Source: Phaeobacter sp. 11ANDIMAR09 (lineage in GTDB: Bacteria; Pseudomonadota; Alphaproteobacteria; Rhodobacterales; Rhodobacteraceae). From it: a stretch of 64,000 bases of DNA. The stretch spans positions 1 to 64,000 of the forward strand of contig NZ_LIKT01000019.1 in NCBI RefSeq assembly GCF_001294455.1. The letters run 5' to 3'. The notes beneath the pieces are model-generated. The model searched no databases, had not been told where the DNA came from, and saw only the letters and a program-made list of their open reading frames with translations. Positions 4,336 to 25,682 of the stretch are shown piece after piece; position 1 is the stretch's first letter; each line of letters opens with the position of its first letter. Both the position numbers and the translations under genes were made by a program.

Positions 4336-5013
4336 TCAGTCCTCGAACCCCAGAAAGCGGGTGGTGTTTTCCACCGGGCGGCGGCGTGAGATCACGGAGT
4401 TTGCGACAAAATCCTCATCCGGGTAGCCCAGAGCAACACAGGTGAGAATAACCTGGTCCTCCGGGATCTGGGCGACCTCGCGCACCACCGGGCTTTGCAT
4501 GATACCCTGGCCATTGATCACCGCGCCAATTCCCTTGCTCCAGGCCGCCAGCACCAGCCCATAGGTCATGGCTCCGGTGTCGAAATGGGCAATCGTATTG
4601 TCGAGCAACGCGCGATCAAAACAGACCACAATGGAGACCGGCGCGTCAAACTGGCGAAAGCCACGCATCACCCAATCCTGACGGCGCTCTTTGTCGTGGC
4701 GCTCGATGCCCATGGCTTCAAATAGCTGCACGGCAATTTCGATCTGGCGGGCGCGGTGTTCGCCTTCATAGGCGGCATAGTCTTCGATGTCGCGGCTCGG
4801 GGGTGTTCCGTCGAGCATACGCTCAGTATTGCCGCGCCGCACCTGTTCCAAAGGCTCCCCAGTCAGCACATGCAGGTGCCAGGGCTGGGTATTCATCGAG
4901 GAGGGCGCTCGGTTGGCCAGCGCGATGATCTCTTGCAGGGTCTCTTTGGGGATGGGAGCCTTGGTAAACCCCCGGATCGAGCGCCTCTCGGCTAGTGCCT
5001 GTTCAAGTTCCAT
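4336..5013 (-). CDS. Nitroreductase family FMN-dependent oxidoreductase
   Basis: This 225-residue protein has the nitroreductase fold signatures: RRSIRGF at the start (FMN-phosphate Arg), NRAPSSMNTQPWHLHVL in the first third, GIGAVINGQGIM in the middle and the C-terminal ALGYPDEDF. Such flavoproteins reduce quinones, nitroaromatics or enones with NAD(P)H. The frame is open further upstream, but the ATG at 5011-5013 follows GGGGAG and gives a normal family length. It lies downstream of TetR and cupin genes on the same strand and may share their regulation, although a 167-bp gap could hold a separate promoter. Confidence 0.88.
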   Translation of the reverse strand: MELEQALAERRSIRGFTKAPIPKETLQEIIALANRAPSSMNTQPWHLHVLTGEPLEQVRRGNTERMLDGTPPSRDIEDYAAYEGEHRARQIEIAVQLFEAMGIERHDKERRQDWVMRGFRQFDAPVSIVVCFDRALLDNTIAHFDTGAMTYGLVLAAWSKGIGAVINGQGIMQSPVVREVAQIPEDQVILTCVALGYPDEDFVANSVISRRRPVENTTRFLGFED

Positions 5014-5180
5014 GATCTCCCCCAAATATTGCCCGGCCAGTTTCTGGCTTGCTGGAGATGATATTAGGCCCCTAGAACTTTGCTTTATAGATGCTTTTGC
5101 GGATGTGCCGCAGCGGAACGATTGGTCTTTTTGAGTCGCGGTGTTCTCTGCAGTGGGAGGGCGCAGAATTCGCTGAGCTG

Positions 5181-5762
5181 TCAACCGCCAGCTTTGAGCC
5201 GCTCCAGAAAGCTTGCGGTGGCCGCGTCAAATGGGACGAGGTTGGCGCTGCTGCGCGCTACCAGTTGCGCCCCTTCGACCAGAGCCAGCGTCGCTGCGGC
5301 CTCGGCCTTTGGCTCCGCACTCCAGCCGGTGTCACTCCCCTCGGCGCGCAGCTGTTCAAAGCGCAGCTCTAGCCAGCTTTGCACCGTTGCGCGAAACTGG
5401 CAGATCTCTTGGCGGGTTTCGGGTGACAGGGCATCCCGCCCAACTGTAAACGCAACGCAGAGACATAGGCCGTGCCCCTCTTGCAGGGCCTGGCGGTAAA
5501 ACCTGACAAAGGCGATCAGCGCCTGGCGCGGCAGAGGCATTGCAATTGCATAGCGCTCCAGCGTCATCGCCACCTGTTTTGCATAGCGGGCCATAATCGC
5601 GTGCAGGAGATCTGATTTGGCCGGAAAGTGATAGTGGATGCTGGCCTTGCGAATGCCGACCTCGGCGCTCAGGTCAGAGTAGCTGAAGCCATCGGCCCCT
5701 TTTTGCCGCACCTGCCGTTCCGCGGCGTCCAGGAGACGGCTCCGGGTGTCGGGTTTGGTCAT
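5181..5762 (-). CDS. TetR/AcrR family transcriptional regulator
   Basis: The 193-residue protein begins with a TetR helix-turn-helix: RSRLLDAAERQVRQKGADGF, then SDLSAEVGIRKASIHYHFPA with the typical recognition helix ending in YYHF-like YHF. The C-terminal ligand-binding half is unassigned. The ATG at 5760-5762 follows GGGAG by eight bases; an ATG nine codons earlier is less well placed. It is encoded 93 bp after the cupin gene on the same strand. The palindrome at 6601-6620, ahead of the cupin gene, is the obvious candidate operator, which would make the unit autoregulated. Confidence 0.9.
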   Translation of the reverse strand: MTKPDTRSRLLDAAERQVRQKGADGFSYSDLSAEVGIRKASIHYHFPAKSDLLHAIMARYAKQVAMTLERYAIAMPLPRQALIAFVRFYRQALQEGHGLCLCVAFTVGRDALSPETRQEICQFRATVQSWLELRFEQLRAEGSDTGWSAEPKAEAAATLALVEGAQLVARSSANLVPFDAATASFLERLKAGG

Positions 5763-5855
5763 TTTGCGCGCTCCCATAGACGCTTTCATAGACAGGGTTC
5801 ATCTGGTGGCCCGCACGGTCGAAAGATCCGTCGTGAAGACGCCGACCCCGTTGCA

Positions 5856-7095: not shown

Positions 7096-9906
7096 ATGTC
7101 TGATCACCTGTACATCACCCGCCTTCCTATTGCCTATGATCCTGATCTCGGCGCCGAGTCCCGTGACCTGGTTTCTGGGCTCTCATCCGAAGCAGGACAG
7201 TTGATCGCCGGAGCCGCTGGCTCCAGCCCTTATCTGCGCAGTTTGATTGAGCAGGAGGCAGCTTGGATCGGCGAGGCCTTGAGCGCTCCAAAACAAGCGC
7301 TGGCGGGCGTTTTGGCAGAATGCCGGGCACTGGCGCCTGATCAGCTGAAACCCGGGTTGCGGCAGGCCAAACGGCGGCTCGCACTCTTGACGGCGCTGTG
7401 TGATCTCTGCGGTGGCTGGTCGCTGGAAGAGGTGACAACGGCCCTGACGGATTTTGGCGCTCTGAGCGCGGATGTGGCGATCAAGGCCGAAATCGCCAGG
7501 CTGATCCGCCGCAAGAAACTGCCGGGCCTCACCGAGGCGGATATCGAGACCGCAGGCGGGCTCAGCATTCTTGCCATGGGGAAAATGGGCGCACATGAGC
7601 TGAACTACAGCTCGGATATCGACCTGATCTGCCTGTTTGACGAGACCCGCTTTGATCCAGACGATTTTTTCGAAGCGCGGCAGGGTATGGCGCGGGCGAC
7701 CCGCAATATGTGCACGACGCTGAGCGAACGCACGGCGGATGGCTATGTCTTTCGCACCGACCTGCGGCTGCGCCCCGATCCGGCCGTCACCCCCGCCTGT
7801 CTCGCTATGGAGGCGGCTGAGCGCTATTATGAAAGCCTGGGGCGAACCTGGGAGCGGGCGGCCTATATCAAGGCGCGACCCTGCGCCGGGGATATCGCCG
7901 CGGGCGAGGCATTCCTCAAAACCCTGCGGCCCTTTGTTTGGCGTCGCCACCTGGATTTTGCCGCCATTCAGGACGCCCATGACATGCGCCTGCGGATCCG
8001 CGAAAACAAAGGCACAGGTGGGCCGATCACCGTGCCCGGGCATGATATGAAACTGGGGCGTGGTGGTATCCGCGAGATCGAGTTCTTCACCCAGACCCGG
8101 CAGCTGATCGCCGGCGGGCGCGACGAGGAGCTGCGCCTGCGGGGCACCGTTGAAGGGTTGGCGGCGCTGGCGCAAAAGGACTGGATCCCATCTGATGTGG
8201 CAGCCCGGCTGAGCGAGCACTATCGCGCCCACCGTGAGGTGGAGCACCGTATTCAGATGGTGCATGACGCGCAGACCCACAGGATGCCAAACTCCGCCGA
8301 AGGCATCGCGCGGGTGGCCTGTCTGATGGGGGAAGATCCAGCAGATCTGCAGGCGGTCATCCGCAAACGGCTGGTCGAGGTTCATGACTTGACCGAGGAT
8401 TTCTTTGCGCCCGATGCGGTGGCCCAAACCAAAGCTGCGATCCCCGATGGCTTTGACAAAAACGTCATTGCGCGCTGGCGCGGCTATCCTGCGCTGCGGT
8501 CTGAACGGGGCGCGCAGATCTTTGACCGGCTCAAGCCGGAGCTACTGGATCGTCTGTCACGCACCGCCAAACCTGCCGAAGCGCTCTTGGCCCTAGATGG
8601 TTTCTTGGCGGGCCTGCCTGCCGGGGTGCAGCTGTTTTCCCTGTTCGAGGCCAATCCACATCTGATGGATCTCTTGGTGGATATCGTTGGCACCTCGCAT
8701 GCGTTGGCAGGTTTCTTGTCGCGCAACTCCGGTGTTTTTGATGCCGTGATTGGTGGCAGTTTCTTTGAGGACTGGCCGGGCGGGGACGTGCTGCGCCAAG
8801 AGCTGGAGGCGGTGCTGGCGCAGGAAGATGACTATGAAACGCAGCTCGATGCCGCGCGCCGCTGGTGTAAGGAATGGCATTTCCGCATTGGGGTGCACCA
8901 TCTGCGGGGGCTGTTGGATGCCAGGGCTGCAGGGGCACAGTATGGCGAATTGGCCGAGGCTGTAATCCAGGCGCTGTTTCCACGTGTTGTCGCCCAGTTC
9001 TCTGTCAAACATGGGCCGCCTCCGGGAAAGGGACCCATTGTCATTGCCATGGGCTCCCTGGGCGCTGGGCAGATCAATGCCCAGTCAGATCTCGATATCA
9101 TTGTTGTCTATGATCCCGAGGAAGCAGAGATGTCACAGGGGCGCAAATCGCTGGCCACGCGCCCCTACTATGCCCGGCTGACCCAGGCGTTGATCACAGC
9201 TCTTGCGGCGCCGATGTCACAGGGGCGCCTGTATGAGGTGGACATGCGGCTGCGTCCTTCGGGCAATAAGGGACCGGTGGCCACCAGCTGGTCAGCCTTT
9301 ACTCACTATCAGGAAAACGAAGCCTGGGTCTGGGAACATCTGGCACTGACACGGGCGCGGGTCATTGCTGGTGAAACGGGGTTGATGCAGGCCTTTGAGA
9401 GCTTCCGCCATAAAGTGCTTGGAACACCCCGGCAGACCGTAGCCGTGCTGGGTGAGGTGGCGCATATGCGCGACCGTCTGGCAGCGGCAAAAACGCCTTC
9501 TGGTGTCTGGGACGCCAAGACTGGTGCAGGGCGGATGATGGATATCGAGCTCCTGTCGCAGGCTGGCGCCTTGCTGGCGAAATCGCTGCAGCGGGATGTG
9601 GCCAGCGGGCTGGACAGCGCTGTCGCTGGTGGTTGGCTCGATGCCGCAGATGCAGTGGTTTTGCAATATGCCTATAGCCTATACTGGTCTGTGCAGACGG
9701 CGGCGCGCTTGCTGTCTGGCGCTTCTCTGGACCAAGAGACGCTGGGTGAGGGCGGCGCGCAGTTTTTGAGCCGCAGTGCCGCGTTTGAGAGCCTGCAGGA
9801 ACTGGAAAAGGCTCTGGAGAGGGCCTATGGCAACAGCGCTGCGATTATTTCGCAGACCCTAGAAAAGGAAGCGGCGGATGCAGAGCCTGGCGGAACTGGA
9901 TCATAA
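7096..9906 (+). CDS. glnE: Bifunctional glutamine synthetase adenylyltransferase/deadenylase
   Basis: GlnE attaches AMP to, and phosphorolytically removes it from, a Tyr on glutamine synthetase in response to PII. The roughly 936-residue product has two nucleotidyltransferase domains, each with the G-x(10)-SDxD signature: MGKMGAHELNYSSDIDL near residue 160 and MGSLGAGQINAQSDLDI near residue 650. Helical linkers (GIREIEFFTQ, EVEHRIQMVHD) follow the first, and the length fits the family. The start is uncertain: an AGGCGGA at 7076-7082 sits 4 bases before a GTG at 7087 and 13 before the ATG at 7096. Its 3' end overlaps the next frame by 29 bp. Confidence 0.93.
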   Translation: MSDHLYITRLPIAYDPDLGAESRDLVSGLSSEAGQLIAGAAGSSPYLRSLIEQEAAWIGEALSAPKQALAGVLAECRALAPDQLKPGLRQAKRRLALLTALCDLCGGWSLEEVTTALTDFGALSADVAIKAEIARLIRRKKLPGLTEADIETAGGLSILAMGKMGAHELNYSSDIDLICLFDETRFDPDDFFEARQGMARATRNMCTTLSERTADGYVFRTDLRLRPDPAVTPACLAMEAAERYYESLGRTWERAAYIKARPCAGDIAAGEAFLKTLRPFVWRRHLDFAAIQDAHDMRLRIRENKGTGGPITVPGHDMKLGRGGIREIEFFTQTRQLIAGGRDEELRLRGTVEGLAALAQKDWIPSDVAARLSEHYRAHREVEHRIQMVHDAQTHRMPNSAEGIARVACLMGEDPADLQAVIRKRLVEVHDLTEDFFAPDAVAQTKAAIPDGFDKNVIARWRGYPALRSERGAQIFDRLKPELLDRLSRTAKPAEALLALDGFLAGLPAGVQLFSLFEANPHLMDLLVDIVGTSHALAGFLSRNSGVFDAVIGGSFFEDWPGGDVLRQELEAVLAQEDDYETQLDAARRWCKEWHFRIGVHHLRGLLDARAAGAQYGELAEAVIQALFPRVVAQFSVKHGPPPGKGPIVIAMGSLGAGQINAQSDLDIIVVYDPEEAEMSQGRKSLATRPYYARLTQALITALAAPMSQGRLYEVDMRLRPSGNKGPVATSWSAFTHYQENEAWVWEHLALTRARVIAGETGLMQAFESFRHKVLGTPRQTVAVLGEVAHMRDRLAAAKTPSGVWDAKTGAGRMMDIELLSQAGALLAKSLQRDVASGLDSAVAGGWLDAADAVVLQYAYSLYWSVQTAARLLSGASLDQETLGEGGAQFLSRSAAFESLQELEKALERAYGNSAAIISQTLEKEAADAEPGGTGS

Positions 9907-14110: not shown

Positions 14111-14797
14111 TCAGGCGCCGTGCCAGCTGGCCTCCAGTCGTTCCAGTGCCGCGATGCGCTCATCTGTCTTGGGGTGCGACATCAACCAGGCCGGAGCCAT
14201 GCCCGCCCGCGCCTGGGTCAGCTCTTCGAGCTTGCGAAACAGGCTCTTTTGCGGTTCCAGCCCAATGCCCGATTTGGCCAGCAGCGCAGCGGCATATTCA
14301 TCGGCTTCATATTCGTCGCTGCGCGACAGGCGTGCCGCCAGCAGATTGGCCAACAACCCGGCAATCCAGGGGCCGACAATAGGAATATAGCGCCCCAGTA
14401 CCATCATCAGTGCAGTGCGCAGCGCATTCTGGCCTGAAAAATCAATGACACGTTTCTTGGCATGCCCCAGCGCCACATGGCCCAGCTCATGGGCAATGAC
14501 AGAGGCAAGCTCGGCCTCGGTGACCTCGCCGTTCTGGTATTTGCGGTAAAACCCGCGGGTGATGAAGATCCGCCCATCAGGTGCCGCCAGCCCATTCACC
14601 GGGTCGACCTCGTAGATGAACACTGGAATGCGCTCGATCTCCAGCGCGGCGGCCATGCGATCGGTCAGGCGTCGCAGCTTGGCATCGGCCAACTCGGTTG
14701 AGCGCGCATCCAGCTCGCGGTGGGTGCGCCAGACGGAAATCCGGTAAGAGATAAGGCCATAGATCACAGCCAGCAGGATAGGGGTAAAACGCAACAT
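14111..14797 (-). CDS. M48 family zinc metalloprotease
   Basis: The 228-residue protein has an N-terminal membrane or signal segment (FTPILLAVIYGLISY) and the zinc-protease motif HELGHVALGH, with His103, Glu104 and His107. The third ligand is probably the Glu of SDEYEADEYAA. The order matches M48 peptidases related to HtpX/BepA, which degrade or refold envelope proteins. The short N-terminus suggests anchorage to the inner membrane with the protease domain exposed; the side is not certain. Confidence 0.87.
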   Translation of the reverse strand: MLRFTPILLAVIYGLISYRISVWRTHRELDARSTELADAKLRRLTDRMAAALEIERIPVFIYEVDPVNGLAAPDGRIFITRGFYRKYQNGEVTEAELASVIAHELGHVALGHAKKRVIDFSGQNALRTALMMVLGRYIPIVGPWIAGLLANLLAARLSRSDEYEADEYAAALLAKSGIGLEPQKSLFRKLEELTQARAGMAPAWLMSHPKTDERIAALERLEASWHGA

Positions 14798-21541: not shown

Positions 21542-22348
21542 TTACAGGTCCAGTTCCACCCAGATCGGCACATGGTCGGAGGGCTTGTCGCGACCGCGGA
21601 TTTCTTTGTCGATCTGACAGTCCTGCAGGAGATCTGCGGCCTGTGGTGAAAGCAGGAAGTGGTCAATGCGAATGCCGTCGTCCCGGTTCCAGGCGCCGGC
21701 CTGATAGTCCCAGAAGGAGTAATGACCCGGCCCCTGGTGACGGGCCCGAAAGGCCTCGGTGAAACCGAGGTTGACGATACGCTGAAAGGCAGCACGGCTT
21801 TCGGGGCGGTGCAGGGCATCTTCGCGCCAAGCCTCGGGGCGTTTGGCGTCTTCGGCCTGCGGGATGATATTGTAATCCCCAGCCATCAGCGCGGGCATTT
21901 CGCTGGCCAGAAGATCGCGGGCGCGGGCCTCGAGCCGTTCCATCCAGGCAAGCTTATAGGCGTATTTGCCGCCGGGAACCGGCTGCCCCTCTGCGGTAAG
22001 TTCCACCGGGTTGCCGTTTGGCAAATACAGACCACAGATGCGCAGGGCCTGTTTGCCGATCACCGTGGCTTCGATCCAGCGCGCCTGGAGATCCTCGTCA
22101 TCACCGGGCAGGCCACGGCTCACGTCTTCCAGCGGCAGTTTTGACAGGATAGCCACGCCGTTGAAGCTCTTTTGCCCATGGGTTTCGACGGTATAGCCGC
22201 GGTCTTCGAGCAAGTCGCGTGGGAAGGCTTCGTCGACGGATTTGATTTCTTGCAGCAGCACAACATCGGGTTGAGCCTCATCAAGCCATTGCGGCAGTGC
22301 GGCAGCACGGGCCTTGATGCCGTTGATGTTGAAACTGGCGATCTTCAT
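21542..22348 (-). CDS. xthA: Exodeoxyribonuclease III
   Basis: This is the AP endonuclease and 3'-5' exonuclease of base-excision repair. The 268-residue protein has the EEP nuclease motifs in order: SFNINGIKAR, VLLQEIKS (metal-binding Glu), SFNGVAILSK, MAGDYNIIPQAEDAKRP, and the C-terminal SDHVPIWVELDL with the catalytic His. It converges with the monooxygenase gene, with about 230 bp between them. Confidence 0.95.
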   Translation of the reverse strand: MKIASFNINGIKARAAALPQWLDEAQPDVVLLQEIKSVDEAFPRDLLEDRGYTVETHGQKSFNGVAILSKLPLEDVSRGLPGDDEDLQARWIEATVIGKQALRICGLYLPNGNPVELTAEGQPVPGGKYAYKLAWMERLEARARDLLASEMPALMAGDYNIIPQAEDAKRPEAWREDALHRPESRAAFQRIVNLGFTEAFRARHQGPGHYSFWDYQAGAWNRDDGIRIDHFLLSPQAADLLQDCQIDKEIRGRDKPSDHVPIWVELDL

Positions 22349-22714
22349 GGTGCGTCTCCTGCCGCGGCGGTTTGGATGCTCTGGCTGATCTATCGCTGAA
22401 TAGGGGGGCGGAGCAAGGGGCGGTTGAAGAGGCGAATCAGAATGTGATGTTTTCTTCGCTTGGATCGCCCGTTTTGCAGCTCTGCGGGGTGCAATCCTGA
22501 CGAGAGATGATTGTCTTGCATCTACAGAGGTGTGGATAAAGCGGTCTATAGCCTGGGGATCGAATTAGATATTTGAAAAGGAACAATTAAATCTATTTAT
22601 AAGTTAAGGTGAGTATCTTTTGACTGGCAACTTAAAATTGAATTACTGTGTTTTCAGATAGCAAATGTCGTGCAAGCGTCGAGGGGTGATTATTCATTTC
22701 TAACGGAGGTTCCG
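22349..22714 (+). promoter_or_regulatory. AT-rich leader upstream of the repeat-peptide gene
   Basis: About 366 bp without a gene. The part from about 22500 to 22700 is markedly AT-rich (for example 22571-22610) compared with the surrounding GC-rich sequence. A candidate -35 TTGACT lies at 22620-22625, with a weak -10 TTACTG 17 bp later (22643-22648). A strong ribosome site, GGAGG, lies at 22705-22709. Composition and length suggest a regulated promoter or a structured leader; no operator palindrome stands out. A 12-codon frame at 22665-22703 could be a leader peptide but is short enough to be chance. Confidence 0.4.
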
Positions 22715-23026
22715 ATGACTGCTTTGCATAAAACCGATACGGCGACACTTTCCCCGGCTCAAACAGCGGGTGAGGTGGAAACACAGGGCTGCAGCCTGTT
22801 TCATGGCGACGGGGTCGAGCTCTATTCGTCCGGCTCCGCACCTGAAATGACCAGCTGCTGGACCGGCGAGAGCACAGCTTTGTTCTCATCTGGCTCTGCG
22901 CCAACGGCGCGCGGGGATCAGGCCTCCGGCGCTCTGGTTGAGCTCTTTTCATCCGGTTCTGCACCCACTGCAGAGGCCAGGGTGGTGAGCGGCGATCTCT
23001 CTGGGTTGTTCTCTTCGGGCAGCTAA
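22715..23026 (+). CDS. Repeat-containing small protein, candidate multi-core peptide precursor
   Basis: The 103-residue product has a polar N-terminal third (residues 1-30, leader-like), then four copies of L-(F/Y)-S-S-G-S starting at Leu36, Leu56, Leu77 and Leu98. Ala-Pro follows in the first three, and the fourth ends the protein. Spacers of 12-13 residues are variable and contain acidic residues, Gly and Thr; the only cysteines are Cys26 and Cys48. There is no membrane segment or Sec signal. GGAGG sits six bases before the ATG. The same-strand neighbours are an unknown enzyme-like protein and an EamA exporter. This layout fits a ribosomal peptide precursor with several cores; a non-modified repeat protein or scaffold is the main alternative. 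It may already carry a DUF number, which I cannot confirm. Confidence 0.85.
   Translation: MTALHKTDTATLSPAQTAGEVETQGCSLFHGDGVELYSSGSAPEMTSCWTGESTALFSSGSAPTARGDQASGALVELFSSGSAPTAEARVVSGDLSGLFSSGS
22820..23023 (+). repeat. Four in-frame copies of a Leu-Phe-Ser-Ser-Gly-Ser motif
   Basis: Copies start at 22820, 22880, 22943 and 23006 (spacing 60, 63 and 63 bp). The amino acids are nearly constant but the codons are not: Leu is CTC, TTG, CTC, TTG; the first Ser is TCG, TCA, TCA, TCT; the last Ser is TCC, TCT, TCT, AGC. The synonymous differences show old copies kept by selection on the peptide rather than recent DNA duplication. Confidence 0.9.
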
Positions 23027-23043
23027 GAGCACCAAGAACACTG

Positions 23044-23071
23044 GCGCGCCCGAATTGGGCGCGCTGCTTTT
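23044..23071 (+). terminator. GC hairpin with T-run between precursor and partner gene
   Basis: GCGCGCCC (23044-23051), loop GAATT, GGGCGCGC (23057-23064), then TGCTTTT. A perfect 8-bp stem 17 bp after the precursor stop. As a terminator or partial attenuator it would give more precursor transcript than downstream transcript, a common arrangement in peptide operons. Confidence 0.8.
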
Positions 23072-23137
23072 CGGGCAAGAGGGGGCGCGATGAAAGGCCC
23101 CGTGGCTCGGATGAGGTTGAGGCTTGAGGAGCAAAAC

Positions 23138-24316
23138 ATGGGGCAAATTCTGCAGTTTCCGGGACGCAAGCGGTTGCCAGGCCGCGCGGAGAACCTATCA
23201 AATCTGCTACACGCCCTGTCTTGCCAGCGCCATAGGCAGGAGGATGTCTACTGGCTGAAAGAAAATGCTGAGCTGCTGAATGTTCTGGAATGTACCCGCC
23301 TCGTCCCTCACGCTGCAGGGGGGGATGTCAGCGATCGGCAAGGCAGTCAGACGCGCGACCTCGCCGAAATCAGCCCGGTAGCGCTGGCCCCCTTGCGGGC
23401 CTTTTATCAGGCGACTGACCGCCATCTGTGCTTTTTTCGCCAATATTACCGGTTCATTCTTTCCATGGCTATGGATCTCGAAGATCTGGGTCTGGTTGAC
23501 CCCGCGCCGGCGGGGGAGGCAGGCCGGGCAGAGATCTTGGCCGATTGGGTGGTACAGCAGGATTTGCCAGGTCACGAGCTGTCTGACCTGCAGCGCGCCG
23601 AGGCCCGGCGATTGCTGGCACGGCGCGGCATCGCCGCGGATTTCCCTGGGCTGGATGCGCGGCTGCATCAGTTTATGGACAATACTGCGCAATTTGCGGT
23701 GCCCAATCGCAAAGCGGCTTATGAGCTCACCCATATCGTGTTCTATCTGAGCGACTACGGGCGCCGGGACCCGGCGGTGTCACGCGCAGCAATCCAGAGC
23801 CTCACCCATGTTGGGCTACTTGCCTATCTGGACCAGGACGCGGATCTGCTTTCCGAGATCTGTATCGCGCTGCGCTACTGTCAGCTCCATCCGCCTCAGA
23901 CTTGGGAAGACTGGTTGTTCCGCCAGCATCATAGCTTTGCAATGGTGGATGCCGAGGAGGCCACAGCCCCTGGCCTGCATCACGACGGGTACCATATGTT
24001 CCTGGTCAGCAGCTGGTATCAGGAGTTGAGCACAGGATCCGGTTTTGACAGGCGCATTCCGGCCGCCGCTCTGCGGTTCCGACGCCCTGACGCAGGGGGG
24101 ATTTTGCACCAATTGTCCGAGGCGACTTTTCGGGCGGGAGCGCAGGGCGGCGATTGGCAGGCCATGCGGGCGCAGGTCGCTGCGGGGCTGAGCGACAGTG
24201 GCTATGAGATTCTATGCGCGGCTGAGGGTAGCTCTGCCTCTTTTGACAGCTTTTTTGTGGATTTTGCACGCCACGGGACTGTTGGACCGCTGCTTGCGCG
24301 GATGGAAACCGCATGA
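23138..24316 (+). CDS. Unknown helical, His-rich protein partnering the repeat peptide
   Basis: The 392-residue protein has no signal peptide or membrane helix and looks mostly helical. Several His residues sit in hydrophobic helices: YELTHIVFYLSDYG (residues 195-208), SLTHVGLLAYLDQD (221-234), FRQHHSFAMVDAEE (261-274) and LHHDGYHMFLVSSW (280-293). These could form a metal or active site. I do not recognise a named family; it may correspond to a Rhodobacteraceae DUF. AGGAGC lies seven bases before the ATG at 23138; ATGs at 23090 and 23111 are alternatives. Its stop overlaps the exporter start (ATGA), so the two are translationally coupled. By position it is the best candidate for modifying or handling the repeat peptide. 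Confidence 0.85.
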   Translation: MGQILQFPGRKRLPGRAENLSNLLHALSCQRHRQEDVYWLKENAELLNVLECTRLVPHAAGGDVSDRQGSQTRDLAEISPVALAPLRAFYQATDRHLCFFRQYYRFILSMAMDLEDLGLVDPAPAGEAGRAEILADWVVQQDLPGHELSDLQRAEARRLLARRGIAADFPGLDARLHQFMDNTAQFAVPNRKAAYELTHIVFYLSDYGRRDPAVSRAAIQSLTHVGLLAYLDQDADLLSEICIALRYCQLHPPQTWEDWLFRQHHSFAMVDAEEATAPGLHHDGYHMFLVSSWYQELSTGSGFDRRIPAAALRFRRPDAGGILHQLSEATFRAGAQGGDWQAMRAQVAAGLSDSGYEILCAAEGSSASFDSFFVDFARHGTVGPLLARMETA

Positions 24317-25281
24317 GGTGGTCTGCCTCTCCTGTTCTGGGCGCAGTGATGGTCATCGCCTATACCGGCTTTGTCTCTTCGGCGGATGGGATCATCAAGC
24401 TTCTGGCGGGGGGCTATGAGGCGGCGCAGATCTACGTGCTGTCGGGCGGGTTGGTGGCGCTGTTGTCGGTGCTGGTGAGCTGGGGCTGCATCTGGGGGCA
24501 GGCTTATCGGGGTAACAGAGGGGTATCACTGCCGCCAAGAGGAGCTGTGTCAGCCCCATGTCGGCCGCCAGAAGTGGTGCCCTGGCGTACCGCTTGCCCG
24601 CGCGCTATGGCGCTGCGAAGTCTCGCGGCCCTGCTGGGGGCCATTTGCTTTTTCTACGCCTTTCGCCTGCTGCCTTTTGCGCAGGTTTTCCTGTTTATTG
24701 GACTGATGCCGCTGCTGGCGGGGGTTATGTCTGGGCTGATCCTGAAAGAGCGGATTGGGTTTGGGGCATGGATTGCGCTTGGTCTGGGTTTTGTGGGGGT
24801 GTTGTTTTTGTTTCCCAGCGGCGTCTCTTCTGTATCGGGAGGGTATATTCTGGCGCTATTGGGGGCGGCGTCGGGGACATTCTCCATGGTGATGGCGCGG
24901 TACATCAGTCGCTATGATGCAAATCTTCTGCCGCAGGTTTTTTATCCCAACCTACTGCTCTGTCTTGCGATGCTGCCGCTGTTGCCCTTTGTCTGGCAGC
25001 CGATGCCGCTGGGCAATCTGGCCTGGGTCTTCGGGTATGGTGTGCTGCTTTTTGCCGCCCGCTGGCTAGCGGTGTCGGCCCTGCGTCTGCTGCCTGCCTA
25101 TGTGGTGACGCCTTTGATGAACCTGCAATTTGTCTGGATGCTGACAATCGGGGCCTGGATCTTTGGAGAGATGCCTAGCCAAGGCACCTGGATTGGCGGC
25201 TGCATCGTGATCGGGTCAGGCCTGTTCCTGCTCTGGGGGCAGGTACTGAACCCCAGAGGGCGTCAGCGCATGGCCGCATAG
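24313..25281 (+). CDS. EamA/DMT-family membrane transporter
   Basis: The 322-residue protein has about ten membrane helices in two EamA halves. Visible features include LLGAICFFYAFRLLPFAQV at the end of the first half, ALGLGFVGVLFLFPSG, and the second-half VTPLMNLQFVWMLTIGAWIFGE. A hydrophilic Pro- and Arg-rich insertion at about residues 66-100 is longer than usual. DMT proteins export or exchange small molecules such as amino acids. The ATG overlaps the stop of the preceding gene by four bases, tying the exporter to the repeat-peptide cassette. It converges on erpA. Confidence 0.87.
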   Translation: MRWSASPVLGAVMVIAYTGFVSSADGIIKLLAGGYEAAQIYVLSGGLVALLSVLVSWGCIWGQAYRGNRGVSLPPRGAVSAPCRPPEVVPWRTACPRAMALRSLAALLGAICFFYAFRLLPFAQVFLFIGLMPLLAGVMSGLILKERIGFGAWIALGLGFVGVLFLFPSGVSSVSGGYILALLGAASGTFSMVMARYISRYDANLLPQVFYPNLLLCLAMLPLLPFVWQPMPLGNLAWVFGYGVLLFAARWLAVSALRLLPAYVVTPLMNLQFVWMLTIGAWIFGEMPSQGTWIGGCIVIGSGLFLLWGQVLNPRGRQRMAA

Positions 25282-25358: not shown

Positions 25359-25682
25359 TTACATCGAAAACGATGTGCCGCAGCCGCAGCTGGAGGAGGC
25401 ATTGGGGTTTTCGATGGTAAAGCGCGCGCCGATCAGCTCTTCGGTGAAATCAATCACCGCGTTTTCCAGAAACGGCAGTGAGACGGTGTCGACCACCACC
25501 TTTTCGCCCTGACCTTCAAGCACCAGGTCGTCTGCGGCTGGTGCATCCAGGGCGATCTCATATTGAAAGCCTGAGCAACCGCCGCCTTCGACCGCGACAC
25601 GCAGGGCCAGGCCCTGGGCTGCAGCGCCGATTTCGGTCAGTCGAGCAAAGGCCCGGTCGGTCACTTTTGGTGGCAGGTTCAT
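25359..25682 (-). CDS. erpA: Iron-sulfur cluster insertion protein ErpA
   Basis: An A-type carrier that delivers Fe-S clusters to apoproteins. The 107-residue protein has the three conserved cysteines: Cys in VEGGGCSGFQYE and the C-terminal pair in SSSCGCGTSF. Length and motif order match ErpA/IscA; ErpA is preferred from the ENPNASSSCGCG tail. It is divergent from dgt with 90 bp between, and its 3' end faces the exporter gene. Confidence 0.9.
   Translation of the reverse strand: MNLPPKVTDRAFARLTEIGAAAQGLALRVAVEGGGCSGFQYEIALDAPAADDLVLEGQGEKVVVDTVSLPFLENAVIDFTEELIGARFTIENPNASSSCGCGTSFSM

Follow-up and report, generated by a model that had tools for sequence, protein, structure and literature searches.

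The 64,000-nt stretch of Phaeobacter sp. 11ANDIMAR09 examined here (contig NZ_LIKT01000019.1, called the window throughout) raises the question of what is made by a small protein that carries nearly the same motif four times, together with the larger protein encoded directly after it. The former has 103 amino acids (aa; nt 22715 – 23026, + strand), begins with a leader, MTALHK..., and resembles the multi-core precursors of ribosomally synthesised and post-translationally modified peptides (RiPPs). The latter, of 392 aa (nt 23138 – 24316, + strand), belongs to the family DUF6902. The system is real and widespread, being carried by many of the bacterium's marine relatives, and it fits best among multi-core pathways of RiPP-like type, the partner being related to DUF6895. 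From the sequences compared, it is probable that DUF6902 is the enzyme modifying a multi-core, RiPP-like precursor, and it would most likely be an epimerase.

The four units of the repeat protein read LYSSGS (nt 22820 – 22837) and then LFSSGS three times (nt 22880 – 22897, 22943 – 22960 and 23006 – 23023), the last being followed directly by the stop codon. They start at residues 36, 56, 77 and 98, a spacing of 20, 21 and 21, just as a preliminary description of this DNA had read them. The start codon, ATG, is preceded by a likely ribosome-binding site, GGAGG (nt 22705 – 22709); an alternative in-frame GTG at nt 22670 would give a protein of 118 aa. The SSGS of the successive units is encoded as TCG TCC GGC TCC, TCA TCT GGC TCT, TCA TCC GGT TCT and TCT TCG GGC AGC. 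Since each is coded differently, the units are not recent copies, and as the differences include TCN against AGC codons for serine, the repeat is evidently maintained by selection. A Pfam scan assigned the protein to no family. A profile of two-unit stretches matched the array at E 1.7e-13, the window's own array being among the 33 from which the profile was built. The repeat protein of another locus, L044, has a weak, sub-cut-off Pfam match to DUF1048 (E 1.1e-4) that is probably compositional.

Repeat and partner are coupled across the family. DUF6902 is present in 108 of 394 genomes, almost one genome per genus, and the repeat profile matches 99 of the 394, all of them DUF6902-positive, with no match among the 286 DUF6902-negatives (Fisher 2.9e-83, uncorrected for relatedness, with nearly one genome per genus). 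All 33 arrays in the profile adjoin DUF6902, and scoring was limited to 19 candidates where a genome offered many, which means that differing arrays elsewhere could escape. Nine DUF6902-positive genomes were missed by the profile: six have arrays with unusual cores (G134, G299, G318, G356, G395, G425), one is cut at a contig end (G174), and two have no array at the locus (G074, G323). With G174 left out, its gene being cut by the contig end, 107 loci were inspected, namely the window and those of 106 other genomes of the family. An array lies directly 5' of DUF6902 in 105 of these, 104 found by rule and one by eye (L089, where a run of N interrupts the array); the rule call for L147 was in the wrong frame, and its true array was read by eye. 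Only L137 and L156 lack one. At 105 of 107 loci a precursor gene, encoding a leader-like start and cores, thus adjoins that of a putative modifying enzyme, the arrangement expected of a RiPP locus. At one congeneric locus (L166, genome G009) the array and the DUF6902 gene are both broken, a decay of the whole cassette. Among 289 genomes drawn from the whole class, three, each from the family of the window, score above the DUF6902 cut-off, and a single genome from a different family shows a sub-cut-off match. In a public genome set, 386 stretches encode a relative; 80 were kept, and those with names are mostly of the Roseobacter group.

The anatomy of the arrays was compared in 101 cases; L132, L133 and L147, for which the automatic register was wrong, were left out of these statistics, and their cores were re-read by eye for the core counts, tree and similarity tests given below. 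Copies number from 2 to 20 per array, the unit consensus is G-[DE]-x4-F-core(4)-x-P, and 519 of the 571 spacings measured are 20 or 21, the extremes being 13 and 40. The array ends exactly at core residue +4 (numbering from F = 0) in 60 of 101 cases. The gap to DUF6902 has a median of 109 nt and stays within 250 nt for 96 of the 101 arrays. The proteins have a leader-like start, with Lys as residue 6 in 70 of 97 arrays when the start is chosen by rule.

Within arrays, selection acts on the Phe and the four residues that follow it. Between paired units of the same array, residues at +1 to +4 differ in 1, 0, 1 and 2% of cases and, where the residue matches, its codon differs in 44 – 55%; in the spacers, residues differ in 63 – 77% and same-residue codons in 31 – 50% (101 arrays). 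Units for this comparison were picked with at most one core mismatch, a choice favouring low core differences. When only the flanks guided the choice (97 arrays), core differences amount to 6 – 12%, with many off-register matches, and spacer differences to 67 – 77%; 62 of the 97 arrays then have a single exact core. Between genomes the cores are diverse, identity at +1 to +4 being 31, 72, 33 and 45%. The core is under its own selection and varies between producers, as is characteristic of RiPPs. Position +2 is Ser, Thr or Cys in 99 of 101 arrays, with Asn in one and Ala in another. There are about 46 distinct cores in 105 loci, an approximate figure because some registers are wrong or doubtful (PSCG and GSAP are doubtful); 50 core strings occur over 191 loci with partly overlapping genomes, the named loci L169 – L248 being in part genomes already present in other loci and not an independent sample. 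The preliminary description had proposed looking for a varying repeat number and a fixed motif. Copy number does vary and the core is nearly fixed within an array, but the motif differs between species.

All copies in an array change together between genomes, even though codons stay diverse within each. The same core is shared by 96% of pairs whose enzymes are more than 85% identical, by 57% at 75 – 85%, by 41% at 65 – 75%, and by at most 14% below 65%. A quick enzyme tree (102 labelled rows, 44 distinct cores), with 39 of its 101 inner branches open, requires no fewer than 63 core changes, the minimum possible being 43. Core similarity tracks enzyme similarity beyond that of xthA, a neighbouring gene (partial r 0.22, p 0.001, n = 95), and tracks xthA beyond the enzyme at 0.125 (p 0.02, n = 95). 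Arrays with mixed cores (L083, L110, L125, L127, L128, L129) are possible intermediates of core change, as is L151, which has two arrays at one locus (TSGS and GSSC).

The partner protein matches DUF6902 (PF21843) at E 8.4e-124, with 413.5 bits against a gathering cut-off of 27, and also exceeds the cut-off for DUF6895 (PF21836; E 1.5e-18, 67.6 bits against 23.8). The two families are homologous (hhalign 93%, E 2.4e-7). It had been described as an unknown, His-rich protein of 392 residues; the length is right, but the family has a name and the 16 His (4.1%) make it only mildly His-rich. Its model resembles an alpha/alpha toroid. Many polar residues are invariant in DUF6902, and the proposed active site is built around His199, Asp236, Glu240 and His286 (codons at nt 23732 – 23734, 23843 – 23845, 23855 – 23857 and 23993 – 23995). 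In a comparison with three DUF6895-type proteins, these residues align with H208, D250, E254 and H313 of one of them, L260. The quartet is kept in 102 of 102 other complete enzymes (325 – 383 aa; contig-cut genes aside) and altered in both complete enzymes that lack an array: L137 has H199R and D236S, and L156 has H199Q, D236L, E240R and H286T. Loss of the quartet and loss of the array are thus linked. In Roseovarius litorisediminis (L226) the DUF6902 gene has an internal stop and H286N, and the array is still there.

The mechanism that we favour starts from a precursor composed of a short leader and 2 – 20 units of the consensus given above. DUF6902 would act on the cores through a site around the His/Asp/Glu/His quartet, and catalysis of some kind on the core is very probable. 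Granted catalysis, epimerisation is on balance the chemistry to be expected, by analogy with the DUF6895 family, in which a lasso-peptide epimerase is known from the title of a cited paper (Shi et al., ACS Catal. 2026, doi 10.1021/acscatal.5c08590, in PMC13352647). The likeliest reaction would be acid/base epimerisation at a core alpha-carbon, with +2 as the best candidate position. Cleavage of the modified array into short peptides particular to each species, by a protease encoded elsewhere in the genome, might follow, a step for which the case is evenly balanced. The peptides would presumably be exported, by EamA where its gene is present, and may serve between cells as a species-specific signal or antagonist.

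Other accounts of the same data differ mainly in what DUF6902 does and in whether the repeat protein is ever cut. The pairing could be as proposed and the chemistry another, with DUF6902 modifying the cores by, for instance, dehydrating the Ser, Thr or Cys at +2 or forming a ring. This is a real but lesser possibility, as the sole function cited for the nearest family, in the title just mentioned, is epimerisation, and the Asn or Ala found at +2 in two arrays has neither a hydroxyl nor a thiol on its side chain that such a reaction could remove. A further step away from catalysis, DUF6902 may be a dedicated, non-enzymatic binding partner of the repeat protein, such as a chaperone, export adaptor or immunity protein. 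Coupling alone is no proof of catalysis, and no cofactor site was identified in DUF6902. Nevertheless, a binding role sits poorly with the many invariant polar residues and with a quartet that is common to DUF6895 and altered in both complete genes whose array is gone, and we consider it improbable.

The repeat protein may instead stay whole, as a beta-solenoid or scaffold displaying F-core-x-P turns that DUF6902 modifies or binds. An AlphaFold2 model of a ten-unit Leisingera protein keeps this rival live: it has about two strands per unit, with a predicted local confidence (pLDDT) of 68 – 84 over residues 61 – 220, a mean of 69.2 over the whole model and a predicted template-modelling score (pTM) of 0.68. 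Ladders of stacked identical residues would also account for the matching cores within an array. The model is tempered by a known artefact, since AlphaFold2 is reported to predict false but confident solenoids for repeats (PMC11795689). Arrays of two units (6 of 101) or three (8 of 101) are short for a solenoid, spacing is mostly regular yet extends to the extremes given above, and the window precursor has, by eye and with no predictor run, no signal-peptide-like or anchoring stretch. An intact scaffold appears unlikely, if less so than a non-enzymatic binding partner.

Downstream of the partner lies an EamA-type member of the drug/metabolite transporter (DMT) family (PF00892, E 2e-18; nt 24313 – 25281, + strand), whose start overlaps the partner's stop by 4 nt at ATGA, as had been described. 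It is an optional part of the cassette. Neighbourhood counts cover the 107 loci and seven more from congeners, 114 in all, and EamA is found downstream in 63 of 109. The co-occurrence proposed in the preliminary description of repeat, partner and exporter therefore holds for the first two, all 99 repeat-positive genomes of the family sample having the partner, but not for the exporter. Matches to the transporter at 1e-30 occur in 12 of 61 drawn genomes, and 11 of the 12 adjoin DUF6902; within that draw, its close relatives are almost confined to this cassette.

The cassette is flanked on both sides by conserved genes that lie outside the system, an xthA-like exonuclease gene (Exo_endo_phos; nt 21542 – 22348, – strand) and an erpA-like gene (Fe-S_biosyn; nt 25359 – 25682, – strand). 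Over the 114 loci xthA lies upstream on the opposite strand in 105 of 106 with room, and erpA downstream on the opposite strand in 99 of 109. Among 36 DUF6902-negative genomes with both genes on one contig, the two are at most 500 nt apart and on one strand in 22, and at most 1400 nt apart in 33, the remainder being separated by 2.7, 3.7 and 165 kb; in ten DUF6902-positives the distance is 1365 – 3406 nt. The cassette therefore sits between two neighbours and faces the opposite way, which bears out the preliminary description, in which xthA and erpA adjoin in related genomes and the cassette lies between conserved neighbours.

The standard RiPP enzymes were also said to be absent, and this agrees with the wider survey. 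No radical SAM, LanM, YcaO, ATP-grasp or lasso cyclase protein was found by Pfam among 16 window proteins (nt 14 – 33 kb; 8 further open reading frames, ORFs, unscanned), and none of the standard enzymes, lasso cyclase included, was recognised by eye in the gene clusters common to many loci (92 of 116 loci). Nor was a shared protease recognised by eye in those clusters. Gene names rest on Pfam in the window and on inspection by eye in the shared clusters of other loci; 24 of the 116 loci were omitted from this survey owing to gene-caller overlap, a loss that does not affect the EamA, xthA and erpA counts. An M48 peptidase (PF01435, E 4.1e-26; nt 14114 – 14797, – strand) is encoded 8 kb from the cassette. 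A GC-rich hairpin between precursor and partner (nt 23044 – 23064, no strand assigned), noted previously, is present and might be an attenuator, but is a weak feature: it is no more stable than shuffled sequence (z –1.05; 35 of 200 shuffles fold equally well), and z falls below –2 in the 60 nt 3' of the precursor at only 22 of 103 loci (simple shuffles).

If the favoured reading is right, about a quarter of the sampled genera (107 of 393) would hold a RiPP-like class that lacks a standard RiPP enzyme, DUF6902 would acquire a function, and some 46 natural core variants would be available on one scaffold. It also predicts a peptide epimerase acting repeatedly on one chain, and raises the question of how all copies in a genome change core in concert while their codons stay different. 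More speculatively, and rather doubtfully, the system could be a family-wide species 'password', in which DUF6902 converts many identical peptides into tetra- to hexapeptides with a D-residue, and whole arrays switch core between relatives, as for pheromones or self-recognition signals, in Rhodobacteraceae.

Among the titles and abstract openings listed in a literature search that left most subscription journals outside, none describes such a system, and no paper searched mentions DUF6902. The nearest known system is the lasso-pathway epimerase of DUF6895, known here from its title, which belongs to a homologous family sharing the H, D, E and H of DUF6902. A small ORF lies directly upstream of the DUF6895-type gene, on the same strand, in all three loci examined. 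In two of these (L260 and L261, from two other proteobacterial families) the ORFs (L260, nt 7506 – 7700; L261, nt 9440 – 9868) share GPW[FY][VI], present twice in L261, and look like the precursors of another peptide class. In the third, L168, from another alphaproteobacterial family, the gene of a weak, DUF6895-like relative (nt 4724 – 5809, – strand) is preceded by a 79-aa ORF that ends in AGSAGSAGSVG. These three cases would fit a superfamily of peptide-modifying proteins. The DUF6902 cassette differs from the DUF6895 lasso pathway in its multi-core precursor, four-residue cores and a Pfam family of its own, and from lasso clusters in having no asparagine-synthetase-like cyclase among the 16 window proteins scanned or, by eye, at other loci. 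MslH, the metal-dependent epimerase of lasso peptide MS-271 (PMC10406935), is likened by mode of action and not by homology: it performs acid/base epimerisation of a ribosomal peptide, and acts on one C-terminal Trp. Microviridins (PMC5934393) and the Kex2-processed repeat proteins of fungi (PMC7329392) depend on other enzyme families and cores, no ATP-grasp having been found at the window locus; what they share with the present cassette is the carriage of several cores in one polypeptide.
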